Positions 2,976 to 21,612 of a DNA stretch of 27,840 nucleotides are shown piece after piece. The stretch spans positions 1 to 27,840 of IMG/VR virus record IMGVR_UViG_3300036886_000511, one strand, 5' to 3'. Positions within the stretch are counted from its first letter, which is position 1. Every line of letters starts with the position of its first letter. The position numbers and the translations under genes were made by a program. Source of the stretch: a virus. The notes below the pieces were generated by a model, which had not been told where the DNA came from, did no database searches, and saw only the letters and a list, made by a program, of their open reading frames with translations.

Positions 2976-3048
2976 GTCGGCTGGGTGGTTAGGTATCACG
3001 CTGGCCTCATAAACCAGTAGAACTTGGTTCGAGTCCAAGAGTCCGACA
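2976..3048 (+). tRNA. tRNA-Met (anticodon CAT)
   Basis: A cloverleaf can be drawn. The acceptor is GTCGG pairing with CCGAC (2976-2980, 3043-3047). The D stem is GTGG/TCAC (2985-2988, 2996-2999). The anticodon stem is CTGGC/ACCAG with one mismatch, around loop CTCATAA, giving CAT at 3008-3010. The T stem is CTTGG/CCAAG around TTCGAGT (3023-3039), with discriminator A3048. The inner acceptor is imperfect (C-T mismatch, an extra A at 3040) and CCA is not encoded. CAT means elongator Met, initiator Met or lysidine-modified Ile2. The initiator hallmark of three GC pairs next to the anticodon loop is not intact. Phages carry such tRNAs as translation supplements or attachment sites. Confidence 0.75.
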
Positions 3049-3055
3049 CAATCAT

Positions 3056-4497: not shown

Positions 4498-4562
4498 GAG
4501 GGGTATAGCTCACCGGTAGAGCGTCCTAGGCAAGGTAGATGGTTCAATTCCATCTCCCCTCA
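4498..4562 (+). tRNA. Degenerate tRNA-like element with shortened anticodon arm
   Basis: Acceptor GAGGGG/CCCCTC (4498-4503, 4556-4561), D arm GCTC-ACCGGTA-GAGC (4508-4522), T arm GATGG-TTCAATT-CCATC (4538-4554) and discriminator A4562 are all well formed. Between the D and T arms only 15 bases remain (4523-4537), where about 23 are needed for an anticodon arm plus variable loop, so no normal anticodon can be assigned. It is probably a decayed tRNA, a tRNA-like structure or a remnant of an attachment site. It lies directly before the small terminase gene. Confidence 0.5.
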
Positions 4563-13023: not shown

Positions 13024-13881
13024 ATGTCAATTGGACAAGGATCGGGAATAACACAAAGAACCTCAGGAACAACCGGAGCGGTTGTTTATAAGGGCACCCT
13101 AGATGCTTCAGGAGGAGTATACCCATCATCTCCTTCAAATGGAGATTATTATATTGTTTCGGTTGCCGGAACAATCAGTGGGACATATTACTCTGTGGGA
13201 GATTGGGCTATTTATAATGGAGCGAGTTGGGAGAGATTAGAATCTGGAGATGATATATTTCATACAGATATTGCAGCAGAAATTTCGGCATTGACTGACA
13301 AAGCAACGCCCGTGGATGCAGATGTGGTTTTGGGAGAAAATTCAGCCGCTTCACCAACGGCTTTCACAAAAATAAAAATAACCTGGGCGCATATAAAAGC
13401 GACTTTAAAAACTTATTTTGACGGAATTTATCAAGCAATAGGAAATTATATCGGCGCAGCAGATGACGGATTATCGGCGCCGGCCAAAGCAGGAAATAAC
13501 GGAAAGGTTTTGGGATTAGTTGCCGGAGCCTTACAATGGGTTTCAGCTGGCGGCGGAAAATTAACTATTGCGAATAAATCGTCAAATTATCCAATTGTTG
13601 TTGGAGACACTGGAAAAGTTTTAGTTGACACTGCGGGTATAACATTTACTTTGCCGGTAATCGCTGCTGGAGACGTAGGGACGGAAGTTATTTTGGTTAA
13701 AAATAATGCTGGGACAACAATGGTGCAGGCAAATACAGGACAGCACATAGCAGACAGCAACTCAGCAGGAACAATTTATGATAGTCAAGCTTCAGAAACT
13801 TATGCAGCCCTCGTTTTAGTCGCGATTTCAACAACCCAGTGGATTATAGTTGGAATGGACGGAACGTGGACGACAACTTAA
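13024..13881 (+). CDS. Fibre-like virion protein, 285 aa
   Basis: A Gly/Ser/Thr/Ala-rich protein. Residues 20-80 carry YKGTLDASGGVYPSSP followed by GDYYIV and YSVGDWAIYNGASWERL, a module frequent in phage tail fibres and other surface appendages. The C-terminal 100 residues (GGKLTIANKSSNYPIVVGDTG onward) resemble a beta-rich fibre tip domain. It ends one base before the start of the DGR target, so the two are probably co-expressed and may form one appendage. Genomic position after the capsid genes leaves open a head or neck fibre. Confidence 0.65.
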   Translation: MSIGQGSGITQRTSGTTGAVVYKGTLDASGGVYPSSPSNGDYYIVSVAGTISGTYYSVGDWAIYNGASWERLESGDDIFHTDIAAEISALTDKATPVDADVVLGENSAASPTAFTKIKITWAHIKATLKTYFDGIYQAIGNYIGAADDGLSAPAKAGNNGKVLGLVAGALQWVSAGGGKLTIANKSSNYPIVVGDTGKVLVDTAGITFTLPVIAAGDVGTEVILVKNNAGTTMVQANTGQHIADSNSAGTIYDSQASETYAALVLVAISTTQWIIVGMDGTWTTT

Positions 13882-13882
13882 T

Positions 13883-14638
13883 ATGTCAATCACAAGAACA
13901 CGTAAAAGTCAGCTTCCAAAAACGGGATGGACTGTTCCATACGATGGAGAGGGTTTTGACGATGGCGGAATTCAAGCTGGTAGTCCGATTTTACCCCGAT
14001 TTATTGATAACGGAGATAATACAATTACGGATCGAGTTACAAATCGTCAATGGATAAAGCAACCAGAATTAATTATTCCTGATGGATTGAGGGCAGATAA
14101 TATAGGGCAACCGAAAGGATTCTGGGTTTCAGGTGGTCCTTATGCAGCGGGAGATATTGTAACTGATTCATCAGATAATTCGGCTTGGATTTGCTTAATT
14201 GCGAATACTCATACTAATGTAACAAGTTTTGCGGCAGAAAGAACGGCTAATCCAACCTACTGGTCCGCCACAGCAAGTATATGGGCAGTAGATGATGGTT
14301 CAGGCAATTTAATTCCATCGCAAGATTTTGTTTGGAGCAATGAAGACACTGGAAAAGGAGCTACTGATTCGTGCAAAGGATTAACAAAATCAGGAAAGAG
14401 CGACTGGTATTTGCCGAATCGTTTTGAATTAGAGAGTATTTTAGATTTAAGTCAAGTCAGACCAACAATTAATTCAACCATTTTTCCGAATACGCGCACG
14501 GATAACTATTATTGGACTTCATCCCCTTACGCCGACGACCCCGGCGGCGTCGCCTGGATTGTCTTCTTCGACGATGGCGGCGTCAGCAGCAACGACCGCG
14601 GCGGCTACGGCTATGTCCGGCCAGTCCGCCAGTATTAA
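13883..14638 (+). CDS. DGR variable (target) protein with DUF1566/Lcl-type C-type-lectin domain
   Basis: A 251-aa protein. Residues 39-60 (DNGDNTITDRVTNRQW) and 175-250 (WYLPNRFELESILDLS, FPNTRTDNYYWTSS, then YVRPVRQ) match the DUF1566/Lcl_C domain, a C-type-lectin-fold scaffold used by many DGR targets. Residues 79-129 (FWVSGGPYAAGDIVT ... WICLIANTHTN ... PTYW) look like an inserted CBM5/12-like carbohydrate-binding module. The last 38 codons before the final Tyr (residues 213-250) are the variable repeat. ATG 13883 is chosen over an earlier in-frame ATG (13850) that lies inside the upstream gene. It probably binds a variable receptor on the host surface. Confidence 0.88.
   Translation: MSITRTRKSQLPKTGWTVPYDGEGFDDGGIQAGSPILPRFIDNGDNTITDRVTNRQWIKQPELIIPDGLRADNIGQPKGFWVSGGPYAAGDIVTDSSDNSAWICLIANTHTNVTSFAAERTANPTYWSATASIWAVDDGSGNLIPSQDFVWSNEDTGKGATDSCKGLTKSGKSDWYLPNRFELESILDLSQVRPTINSTIFPNTRTDNYYWTSSPYADDPGGVAWIVFFDDGGVSSNDRGGYGYVRPVRQY
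14519..14632 (+). repeat. DGR variable repeat (VR)
   Basis: A 114-bp segment pairs base for base with 15116-15229. By my count 19 positions differ and every one is an adenine in the template copy: 15 became G, 4 became T, none C. No difference falls on C, G or T. This is the signature of adenine-specific mutagenic retrohoming. The last 22 bases (CTATGTCCGGCCAGTCCGCC then AG) are identical and probably include the initiation-of-mutagenic-homing region. Similarity ends 3 bases before the gene's stop codon. Confidence 0.95.
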
Positions 14639-15024: not shown

Positions 15025-15253
15025 TTAACCCGCGTGGTTAGTCAGCGAGGGTTTTGGAAATACAAACCCCTGCCCTTGAAAGAGGATAGAAGCACGAAGT
15101 CAGGGGTTATCTAAATCATCCCCTTACGCCGACGACCCCGACAGCGACGCCTGGATTGTCAACTTCAACAATGGCAACGTCAACAACAACAACCGCAACA
15201 ACAACAACTATGTCCGGCCAGTCCGCCAGCACTTCCTATTCAGCCCAGCCTGT
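15023..15253 (+). ncRNA. DGR template RNA region with structured 5' leader
   Basis: This non-coding stretch carries the TR and its flanks. At its 5' end GATTAACC/GGTTAGTC (15023-15030, 15036-15043) forms an 8-bp hairpin with one G-T pair. Further in, AACCCCTG/CAGGGGTT (15065-15072, 15101-15108) form a perfect 8-bp stem enclosing 28 bases. GGGTTT/AAACCC (15049-15054, 15064-15069) would form a competing hairpin. In BPP-1 the sequences flanking TR are needed for priming and RT/Avd binding, and these structures are good candidates for that role. The exact RNA ends are unknown. Confidence 0.7.
15116..15229 (+). repeat. DGR template repeat (TR)
   Basis: This is the invariant donor copy of the 114-bp repeat. 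Read in the frame of the target gene it encodes 38 codons including 12 Asn codons (11 AAC, 1 AAT), clustered as four AAC, CGC, four AAC. Adenine mutagenesis of AAC cannot create a stop codon, and it can give many residues. The TR ends 33 bases before the RT start at 15263. It contains about 35 adenines, 19 of them changed in the present VR. Confidence 0.95.
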
Positions 15254-15262
15254 TTGACAGAT

Positions 15263-16081
15263 ATGCAAGAAGTATTCATATTAGAGAAATTATGGAAAGC
15301 ATATCTTGATTGTAAAAAGAGAAAGAAAAACACAATCAACGCGCTTAAGTTTGAAATCAACCGAGAGAAAAATCTGATTGCTCTTTTAAAAGAATTAAAA
15401 TCAAGAGAATATAAAATATCTAAACACATTTGTTTTATTGTTAAAGATCCGACTGTTAGAGAAATCTTTGCCGCAGATTTTCGGGACCGAGTTGTGCATC
15501 ATCTTTTATATAATGAAGTTAAGGGTATATTTGAGAAAGACTTCATTAAAAACTCCTTTGCAAACAGGATCGGCAAGGGCACGCACAAAGGAGTTGAAAA
15601 ATTAAAAGAATATTTAAAAGACCAGAGCATCACTCATTTTCTAAAACTGGATATAAAAAGTTTTTTCTGCTCGATAAATAAAGATATTTTATACGGGATA
15701 GTTTCTGAAAAAATTAATGGCGCAGACAAAAGTTTTGGATGGAAAAAGGATATTTTATGGTTGTGTGGTAAGATAATATATAACGACCCGACAAAGAATT
15801 ATCTTTTTAAGGGCAATTGGAGATTAAAGAATTTAATCCCGAAAGACAAATCGTTGTTTTATTCAAAAGGGAAAGGATTGCCAATTGGAAACCTGACATC
15901 ACAATTTTTCGCCAATGCATATTTAGATCAGTTAGATAAATTCATTTACGGACTTGGCCACAAATATTATATCAGGTATGTTGACGATTTTATTATTTTG
16001 GGTGATAAAAACATTTATGAGGACACAGATAAAGCTGAGCGAGAAAAAAGTAAGGTTTCAGCCGGTAGAAATGGGCATTGA
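15263..16081 (+). CDS. DGR reverse transcriptase, N-terminal and catalytic part (frame broken)
   Basis: A 272-aa frame covers RT fingers and palm. It shows FLKLDIKSFF (first catalytic Asp, about residue 130), GLPIGNLTSQ with the DGR-specific IGxxxSQ motif (208-214, where group II intron RTs have QGxxxSP), and the catalytic YVDD (239-242). Shortly after YVDD it runs into DTDKAEREKSKVSAGRNGH and stops at TGA 16081. The expected thumb region (GIDFLGY onward) continues in the +1 frame. ATG 15263 is preferred over an in-frame TTG at 15254. The enzyme would copy TR RNA into adenine-mutated cDNA with Avd. A deletion of 3n+2 bases near 16015-16040 is the simplest cause. Confidence 0.85.
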   Translation: MQEVFILEKLWKAYLDCKKRKKNTINALKFEINREKNLIALLKELKSREYKISKHICFIVKDPTVREIFAADFRDRVVHHLLYNEVKGIFEKDFIKNSFANRIGKGTHKGVEKLKEYLKDQSITHFLKLDIKSFFCSINKDILYGIVSEKINGADKSFGWKKDILWLCGKIIYNDPTKNYLFKGNWRLKNLIPKDKSLFYSKGKGLPIGNLTSQFFANAYLDQLDKFIYGLGHKYYIRYVDDFIILGDKNIYEDTDKAEREKSKVSAGRNGH

Positions 16082-16337
16082 TTTTCTGGGATATTTTATA
16101 AAACCCAGCCACATATTAGTCCGGAGAAAGGTTGTGGGTAGATTCAAAGATAAAATGTATAGATTGGGCCCGGTGAATGTAAAAGAGTTAATGGCAACAG
16201 GCAATTCATATTTTGGGCATTTCATTCACGGCGATTCATTCAAATTAAGAAAAACAATTTACGATAAATATTTTAAAGGAAAATTCAAATTTAAAAAACA
16301 ATATAAATCAATAAAACTTCTACCACCGAAAAAATAA
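16017..16337 (+). CDS. DGR reverse transcriptase, C-terminal (thumb) part in the +1 frame
   Basis: This frame carries IKLSEKKVRFQPVEMGIDFLGYFIKP and ILVRRKVV, the conserved end of DGR reverse transcriptases, and ends in a Lys-rich tail (LLPPKK). It is offset +1 from the catalytic part. The distance from YVDD to the lysine pair is roughly ten residues shorter than I expect for the family, which points to a small deletion. An ATG at 16017 could start a separate 106-aa chain overlapping the upstream part by 65 bases, so a two-chain enzyme is possible. Otherwise this is the 3' half of a broken gene. Confidence 0.75.
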   Translation: MRTQIKLSEKKVRFQPVEMGIDFLGYFIKPSHILVRRKVVGRFKDKMYRLGPVNVKELMATGNSYFGHFIHGDSFKLRKTIYDKYFKGKFKFKKQYKSIKLLPPKK

Positions 16338-19653: not shown

Positions 19654-20016
19654 ATGGAAAATCAAAAAGATACAATCACAATTGAGACTCCGGCAGATAA
19701 ACACAGCGTTATTTTAAATGCTTATATTACCGGCCGGGAGAAGAGAAATTTAAATAATATTTTTCAGGCCTGGCAAGTTGGATTGGGAGACAAGGGAATG
19801 ATATCTGATAAAAAAGATACAAAGGGAATGATTGAAAACGCAGAAAATGAAGCAATTAAAACCGTCGTTGTTTCAGTAGATGGAATATCTGAAAATGTTT
19901 TGGATAAAGTTTTAGACATGAAATCCGATGATTATGTTTTCGTAATCAAAAAGATTAATGAAATCACATCGGGATCAGGTTTTTTAGCAGAAGCCCAGAC
20001 GGAGATAGCGAAGTAG
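19654..20016 (+). CDS. Tail assembly chaperone, short form (G-like)
   Basis: A 120-aa protein. TIETPADKHSVILNAYITGREKRNL followed by helices and VDGISENVLDKVLDMKSDDYVFVIKKINEI is the usual layout of siphophage tail assembly chaperones. These coat the tape measure before tube polymerisation. The short form ends at TAG 20014-20016 in the zero frame. The sequence T TTT TTA at 19980-19986, in the correct phase, allows a -1 shift to produce a longer form. The position between tube and tape measure genes is that of lambda G/T. Confidence 0.78.
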   Translation: MENQKDTITIETPADKHSVILNAYITGREKRNLNNIFQAWQVGLGDKGMISDKKDTKGMIENAENEAIKTVVVSVDGISENVLDKVLDMKSDDYVFVIKKINEITSGSGFLAEAQTEIAK

Positions 20017-20183
20017 ATCTCTCAAAAAACTCCTACCGCGCGGGCAATATGGATGAGCTGATGATTATGGTTTACATTTGCCAAACAACTGGATGGGATT
20101 TTTATACATATATGAATCAGCCGGAATGGTTTTTGGACTTGTTTAAATGGAAATTAGAATTTGATTCAAAAAAACAAAAATAA
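19654..20183 (+). CDS. Tail assembly chaperone, long form by programmed -1 frameshift (GT-like)
   Basis: Decoding 111 codons in frame to TTA 19984-19986 and then slipping back one base reads on from AGC at 19986 through 65 more codons to TAA 20181-20183. The product is about 176 aa. The extension contains SYRAGNMDELMIMVY and TTGWDFYTY, typical of the T-type part of tail chaperones. UUUUUUA is a classical slippery heptamer. A 6-bp stem GGAGAT/ATCTCT (20001-20006, 20017-20022) lies 14 bases downstream. The -1 frame is open only from 19962 and has no better start than an internal ATG at 20049. Confidence 0.8.
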
Positions 20184-20184
20184 C

Positions 20185-21612
20185 ATGGCATTATTTGGAT
20201 CATCAGACACATCTATAAATATCGTAGTTTCAGCGCTGGATCAGGCCAGCACCGTTTTAAGTGGATTAGAAAGTAAGTTGAGCTCAATGAAAAAGGCTTT
20301 TACTGCTATGCAACAGATAGGCACGATTGGATTTGCGGCAACCGCGGGAGCATCTATACTGGCAGTAAAAGATTTTGCTGAGACCGGAAAACAAACAGAA
20401 ATTTTGGCTCAAAAAACAGGATTTAGCGCAAGCGCTATTTCGTCTTTAGGTTTGGCTTTAACTGAATCCGGAGTGAGTTCTGATCAGATGGCCACTGGAA
20501 TGAAGATGTTGTCTAAGCAGATATATGCAGCTGAGGGAGGAACTAAAAGTGCGATTACCAATTTACAAGGAGTTGGGATTAGTTTAAAAGATATTAAAAC
20601 TTTAAAACCTGAAGAGTTATTTTTTAAGGTAGCCGGCAAGGTGGCTGATTTAAAAGATAATACAGCCAAATTGGCCGAAGCTACAAAATTATTCGGCAGA
20701 TCTGGAACGGATCTGTTGCCCTTTTTTGATTTAGGTTCGGCTGGCATAGCAAAATTGAGAGATGAGAATACAAGACTGGGAGCTACGTTTGACGAGGATA
20801 TGATAAAAAAAGCCCAGGCAGCAGAGTTTAATTTATCTGAATTACAGACAGCTCAGCAAGGTCTTACTATTGCTTTTGGAGAATCATTGGCTCCGGCATT
20901 GGCAGATTTGGCCGTTAAAATTACTGGGGTAATAGTTGCGGTAAGCGGATTCATGAAGCAACATCCTCAACTGGTTTCTAATATAGTTTTAATTGCAGGT
21001 TCAATATTTGGACTTTTGGCAGTAGGCGGAACGATGGGAAAATGGCTTTTGGATATAATAAGGATAGGACAAATTTTAATACCTGTTCTACAAGGAATAA
21101 ATCTTGCCTTTTTAGCAAATCCTGTGACATGGGTTGTTTTAGGTTTGGTTGCGATTGGAGTTGCTTTTTACGAGCTGTATCAGCATTCTGAAACTTTTAG
21201 AAAAGCAGTAAATGAATTATGGGATTTAGTAAAAATAGCGGCAGGCGAGATAGCTAAACTTTTTGTCAACGCTTTTAATGACGTAAAGAATGCGATTAAA
21301 GGAGCATCTGATATGCTGACAAATATTGGTAATATTGCTGGTAATGTTGGAAAATCGATTGGGGGGGCTATTTCAACTGTTACGGGTGGCACTGTGAAGA
21401 TATTGGGAGCTAAGGCCAGCGGAGGGTGGATTGATCAGACAGGGCCTTATTTAATGCACGCAGGAGAGTATGTAATACCAAGTCAGGCAGTTGGCGCAGG
21501 AATTGGCGGGCAGAATATTGTGGTTAATATCACCGGCACTGTAGATGAAAGAATGGCGCAAAGAGTGGGAGATTTAATTGTTGGAAAATTAAAAAGAAAT
21601 AGAAAAATCTAA
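20185..21612 (+). CDS. Tape measure protein
   Basis: A 475-aa protein from ATG 20185 (MALFGSSDTSINIVVSALDQAS). An in-frame TTG 24 bases upstream is less likely. It has a helical N-terminus with a TMP-like DQASTVLSGLESKLSSMKKAF repeat and a Gly/Ala-rich segment. The region at about 260-335 holds several hydrophobic helices (LVSNIVLIAGSIFGLLAVG, VTWVVLGLVAIGVAFYELY). The C-terminal end (GGWIDQTGPYLMHAGEYVIP) is characteristic of tape measure proteins. It sets tail length; at roughly 0.15 nm per residue this would be near 70 nm. Its TAA overlaps the next start (TAATG). Confidence 0.85.
   Translation: MALFGSSDTSINIVVSALDQASTVLSGLESKLSSMKKAFTAMQQIGTIGFAATAGASILAVKDFAETGKQTEILAQKTGFSASAISSLGLALTESGVSSDQMATGMKMLSKQIYAAEGGTKSAITNLQGVGISLKDIKTLKPEELFFKVAGKVADLKDNTAKLAEATKLFGRSGTDLLPFFDLGSAGIAKLRDENTRLGATFDEDMIKKAQAAEFNLSELQTAQQGLTIAFGESLAPALADLAVKITGVIVAVSGFMKQHPQLVSNIVLIAGSIFGLLAVGGTMGKWLLDIIRIGQILIPVLQGINLAFLANPVTWVVLGLVAIGVAFYELYQHSETFRKAVNELWDLVKIAAGEIAKLFVNAFNDVKNAIKGASDMLTNIGNIAGNVGKSIGGAISTVTGGTVKILGAKASGGWIDQTGPYLMHAGEYVIPSQAVGAGIGGQNIVVNITGTVDERMAQRVGDLIVGKLKRNRKI

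Follow-up and report, generated by a model that had tools for sequence, protein, structure and literature searches.

The G/GT frameshift mechanism of phage tail assembly has been known since work on phage lambda in the early 1990s. Pairs of this type are characterized by a low, fixed ratio of GT to G, by virions that contain neither product, and by binding of G to the tape measure and of T to the tube. In lambda, gpG coats the tape measure protein, the tail tube protein is brought in through the T portion of gpGT, and the ratio of the two products matters (PMC5009743). A tail-assembly frameshift conserved among dsDNA tailed phages was described by Xu, Hendrix, and Duda (2004, as cited in PMC5009743). 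In the Lactococcus phage TP901-1, the slip site of the gpG/gpT pair is GGGAAAG, and mutants showed that tails function only when both forms are made (PMC4493119). Here, we analyzed the 27,840-base virus record IMGVR_UViG_3300036886_000511 (the whole stretch is referred to as the window), in which a G/T pair lies between the tube gene upstream and the tape measure gene downstream, as in lambda-type G/GT pairs (Table 1). As in lambda gpG/gpGT, the G ORF is short, the putative −1 slip site is near its end, and the T extension reaches the start of the tape measure gene; the second ORF overlaps the end of G in the −1 frame and does not require a start codon of its own. With TP901-1, the locus shares the layout and the presumed roles of the two products, whereas the heptamer differs; the comparison is one of layout. 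Compared with lambda, the window has the heptamer T_TTT_TTA, and no sequence similarity to annotated chaperone families was detected.

Table 1. Features of the candidate G/GT locus and its flanking tail genes in the window.
Feature	Position	Strand	Basis or remark
Tail tube / major tail protein, 329 aa	18552..19541	+	Pfam Phage_tube_2, E 1.2e-12; PHROG 290 tail, E 2.7e-26
G-like tail assembly chaperone (putative), zero-frame product	19654..20016	+	120 aa; ORF; homologs; AlphaFold2 model
Overlap, zero and −1 frames both open	19962..20013	+	A slip must fall inside
Slippery heptamer T_TTT_TTA, in phase	19980..19986	+	Also present at the corresponding position of L010, L029, and L036; T_TTT_TTG in L023
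T extension, −1 frame	19986..20183	+	65 codons plus stop; a further 31 distinct loci carry a homolog
Tape measure protein, 475 aa from ATG	20185..21612	+	PHROG 8462 tail length tape measure, E 1.2e-35

At the slip site of the window, the zero-frame codons are GGT TTT TTA GCA, i.e., the X_XXY_YYZ phase, which bears out the in-phase T_TTT_TTA claimed by the sequence-only reading. The −1 frame meets no stop between 19962 and the TAA that ends at 20183; it overlaps the G frame by 52 nt, with the heptamer inside, and the 65 codons after the slip occupy positions 19986–20180. A single base (20184) separates the T stop from the ATG of the tape measure gene, for which an additional in-frame TTG occurs upstream at 20161. 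All the coordinates that had been given for this 65-codon extension and its distance of one base from the tape measure ATG were right, and the sequence quoted from it, DELMIMVYICQTTGWDF, was found within the T extension as given. The claim that naive ORF calling would overlook the T protein also held, and simple gene calling missed the −1 extension. RNA structure downstream of the window slip site was not above that of shuffled sequences (z −0.75 to +1.04).

The window phage is AT-rich, and in-phase XXXYYYZ heptamers are common in its genes: 87 were counted in approximately 7,150 codons (0.012 per codon), so that about 0.2 would be expected by chance within the 17-codon (52-nt) overlap. The 65-codon −1 frame remained open in 0.98% of the dinucleotide shuffles of the T stretch. 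Taken by itself, the window makes a frameshift plausible with moderate statistics and is suggestive only. The same figures, a heptamer that is not rare and a frame that stays open in about 1% of shuffles, would also suit an AT-rich intergenic region that happens to be open and is not used; however, the amino acid sequence and frame of T are conserved in other loci, and close pairs of relatives have an excess of third-position differences (see below). We give this chance explanation a negligible probability, and the sequence conservation already contradicts it. The case goes beyond chance because the extension, its frame, and a slip site are conserved in relatives.

When the G protein alone was used as the query, the sole match was a second record, IMGVR_UViG_3300037089_000175 (L003), which is identical at the slip site and therefore adds no evolutionary evidence. 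The tube protein query reached a more distant virus contig, L004, which has the same layout: its heptamer, T_TTT_TTT, is in phase, and its extension runs for 93 codons. A two-sequence tube alignment reached L006 and L007, contigs from metagenome-assembled bacterial genomes, and an alignment of three G proteins reached seven more virus records (L008–L014), of which L011 and L012 are alike at the G/T locus and count as one. G homologs came from 8 distinct records besides the window, and every one of these has a T homolog at −1. A search with the T part only, blind to G and to slippery sites, found 32 loci, nearly all of them in −1 relative to the upstream ORF; alignment A9 was too diverse for the contig scan, and a subset of A9 worked. 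When the loci of the T and G searches were combined and duplicates were merged (among them window/L026, L010/L025, L008/L022, and L009/L024), there were 32 distinct loci, including the window. L016–L021, from small bacterial genomes, were excluded from the counts: L016 and L019 are on the strand opposite to the one read, the hits L020 and L021 are weak ones, and the counts did not need L017 and L018, which seem real. The 32 loci share ancestry and are not independent samples, and for this reason we attach no P value to the counts. Four T relatives (L006, L007, L017, and L018) are contigs binned into small bacterial genomes (approximately 0.8–1.4 Mb), so bacteria with reduced genomes may be among the hosts of the window phage family.

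The T sequences of the relatives share the motif C-x-x-x-G-W-[TD]-Y-x-x-Y-M-x-Q-P-x-W-F. Counting the window, 31 of the 32 distinct loci have T placed at −1 relative to a G-sized ORF upstream of it, and none of the 32 joins G and T in one frame. This distribution bears on the idea that G and T are one continuous gene broken by an assembly error. Although the window has another frame break, in its reverse transcriptase gene relative to 3300037089_000175, both records read the same across the G/T junction, and 30 additional distinct loci, derived from different samples, show the −1 offset again; we consider an assembly error at this junction extremely improbable.

An in-phase XXXYYYZ heptamer occurs within the overlap in 30 of the 31 −1-frame loci. 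By the standard that the sequence-only reading had set for itself, relatives with the extension frame retained but the slippery site lost would count against it; when this was checked, only L009 (= L024) kept the frame without the site. The heptamer is T_TTT_TTA in window/L026, L010/L025, L029, and L036, T_TTT_TTG in L023, G_GGT_TTT in L008/L022, C_CCA_AAA in L035, L041, and L050, A_AAC_CCT in L048, and A_AAA_AAA in all other heptamer-bearing distinct loci. The type of heptamer therefore changes among relatives, and its position and phase are constant. A-runs longer than 7 are weak evidence of phase because they fit more than one phase, and the informative cases in this respect are the ten distinct loci whose heptamer is not poly-A.

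Runs of 9–10 A at the junction of many relatives (L006, L007, L011, L013, and L014) could cause the polymerase to stutter, and transcriptional slippage on a homopolymer might then replace ribosomal frameshifting. However, the window has only T6, and the relatives with G_GGT_TTT and A_AAC_CCT have no long run and still keep the phase of the heptamer, which makes slippage a very unlikely explanation. Another way to dispense with a frameshift is to read T as a separate 44-aa protein. There is indeed an ATG in the T frame at 20049, and since most genes of the window phage have no clear Shine-Dalgarno sequence, its absence before 20049 says little. In contrast, the T-frame residues before this ATG are conserved in relatives (Y-x-x-G), and conservation that begins upstream of the ATG speaks against a separate protein. 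The position of Met in T also varies, with no ATG before the conserved core in L007, L013, and L050, and an in-phase slip site is kept in 30 of 31 loci. We accordingly see little prospect that T is translated independently, and favor frameshifting at the heptamer.

Comparison of close relatives gave a further view of the T frame. The numbers of differences at codon positions 1/2/3 were 11/13/33 between L022 and L023, 5/5/15 between L029 and L036, and 7/8/22 between L038 and L039. Such a third-position excess in close pairs shows the pattern that a translated T frame would be expected to leave. Between the window and L022, the differences were 29/25/32, and pairs that include the window are too diverged to show much.

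Two relatives depart from the common arrangement. In L009 (3315–3345), a close relative, the T frame is kept, and the junction is GTA GAT TTT CGG, with no canonical heptamer, so that frameshifting there would have to use a different motif or a weaker slip involving a single tRNA. Annotated phage frameshifts include several non-canonical motifs (PMC10885494). In L040 (2690–3177), both G and T are intact, but T is in the +1/−2 frame, at an A8 run; either a genuinely different shift or an error in the homopolymer could account for the offset. A tentative interpretation, which we consider possible but rather doubtful, is that a single G/GT family has kept its product while its routes to the −1 frame changed: ribosomal heptamers such as T_TTT_TTA and G_GGT_TTT in some members, A9–A10 runs perhaps acting partly through transcriptional slippage in others, and a +1/−2 shift in L040.

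Elsewhere in the window, a reverse transcriptase gene (15254–16337; PHROG 1423, E 3e-72) and a 114-base repeat with 83% identity are likely to form a diversity-generating retroelement. The repeat fits a template copy at 15116–15229 and a variable copy at 14519–14632, at the end of the ORF at 13850–14638. The reverse transcriptase of the window is split over two frames, with the break at approximately 16033; L003, otherwise identical, has about 35 more bases there and the reverse transcriptase in one frame, and the break is either an assembly error or a real difference. Additionally, ARAGORN called a tRNA-Met at 2976–3049 and Rfam a tRNA at 4498–4562, and neither tool calls the tRNA of the other.

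With the window G and T as queries, Pfam and PHROG gave no match to a chaperone family by sequence; the T of one family member has a marginal match (E 0.059) to a tail assembly chaperone PHROG. In tblastn searches against annotated phages, the G proteins of the window and L008 had no match, and the T of L008 and L029 had only a weak match in Thermoanaerobacterium phage THSA-485A (NC_018264) and one chance-level match. This phage was also reached via the tube protein (29% identity). It has a 110-aa ORF with G_GGT_TTT in phase and a −1 extension containing CREMGWTFTELEQQPAY, followed by the tape measure gene. It therefore resembles the window in its homologous tube, G-sized ORF, −1 extension (with CREMGWTF), and adjoining tape measure gene, whereas its sequence similarity to the window is distant only. 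In the annotation of NC_018264, G is a hypothetical protein and T is omitted. The AlphaFold2 model of the window G (mean pLDDT 73) is predicted to have a beta hairpin followed by helices, and the model of T consists of four helices. A fold search of the PDB with the G model gave no match. Foldseek comparison with BFVD gave weak matches, the best of which (E 1.2e-4) is unnamed; those named as tail assembly chaperones are predicted phage structures and are weak (E 0.0045 to approximately 0.1). The gene order and the resemblance of the predicted G fold fit lambda-like roles for G and T, which they support but do not prove.

The earlier interpretation of the locus as a G/GT tail chaperone is supported by its place in the order tube, G, T, tape measure, by its phase and length, and by conservation. 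Considering the site and its phase, the gene order, and the conservation of the extension, its frame, and a slip site in relatives, we regard it as very probable from the sequences that the window encodes a G/GT pair of the lambda type, with GT arising through programmed −1 frameshifting at T_TTT_TTA. Most ribosomes would make the 120-aa G protein only, and a minority would slip by −1 at the heptamer to give a GT fusion of approximately 176 aa. If lambda is a guide, the tape measure protein would be coated by many G and few GT copies, and the T part would recruit the tail tube protein. The sequence-only reading spoke of a frameshift “producing” the chaperone; the GT fusion protein and the GT:G ratio are what we infer, as are the slip, its efficiency, and the chaperone function. 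In E. coli, U_UUU_UUA is far less shift-prone than A_AAA_AAG (PMC5009743), and this low rank fits a low-level GT product while lending no support by itself. From work on U_UUU_UUA covered in the same paper, the junction peptide would be expected to carry a mixture of Leu and Phe, GSGF-[L/F]-SR.

The mechanism has long been known, and what is new here is the sequence family. The finding adds a putative chaperone family unrecognised by Pfam and PHROGs and names a protein overlooked by plain gene calling. Furthermore, the alignment and the T motif allow the annotation of G/GT pairs in uncultivated phages.
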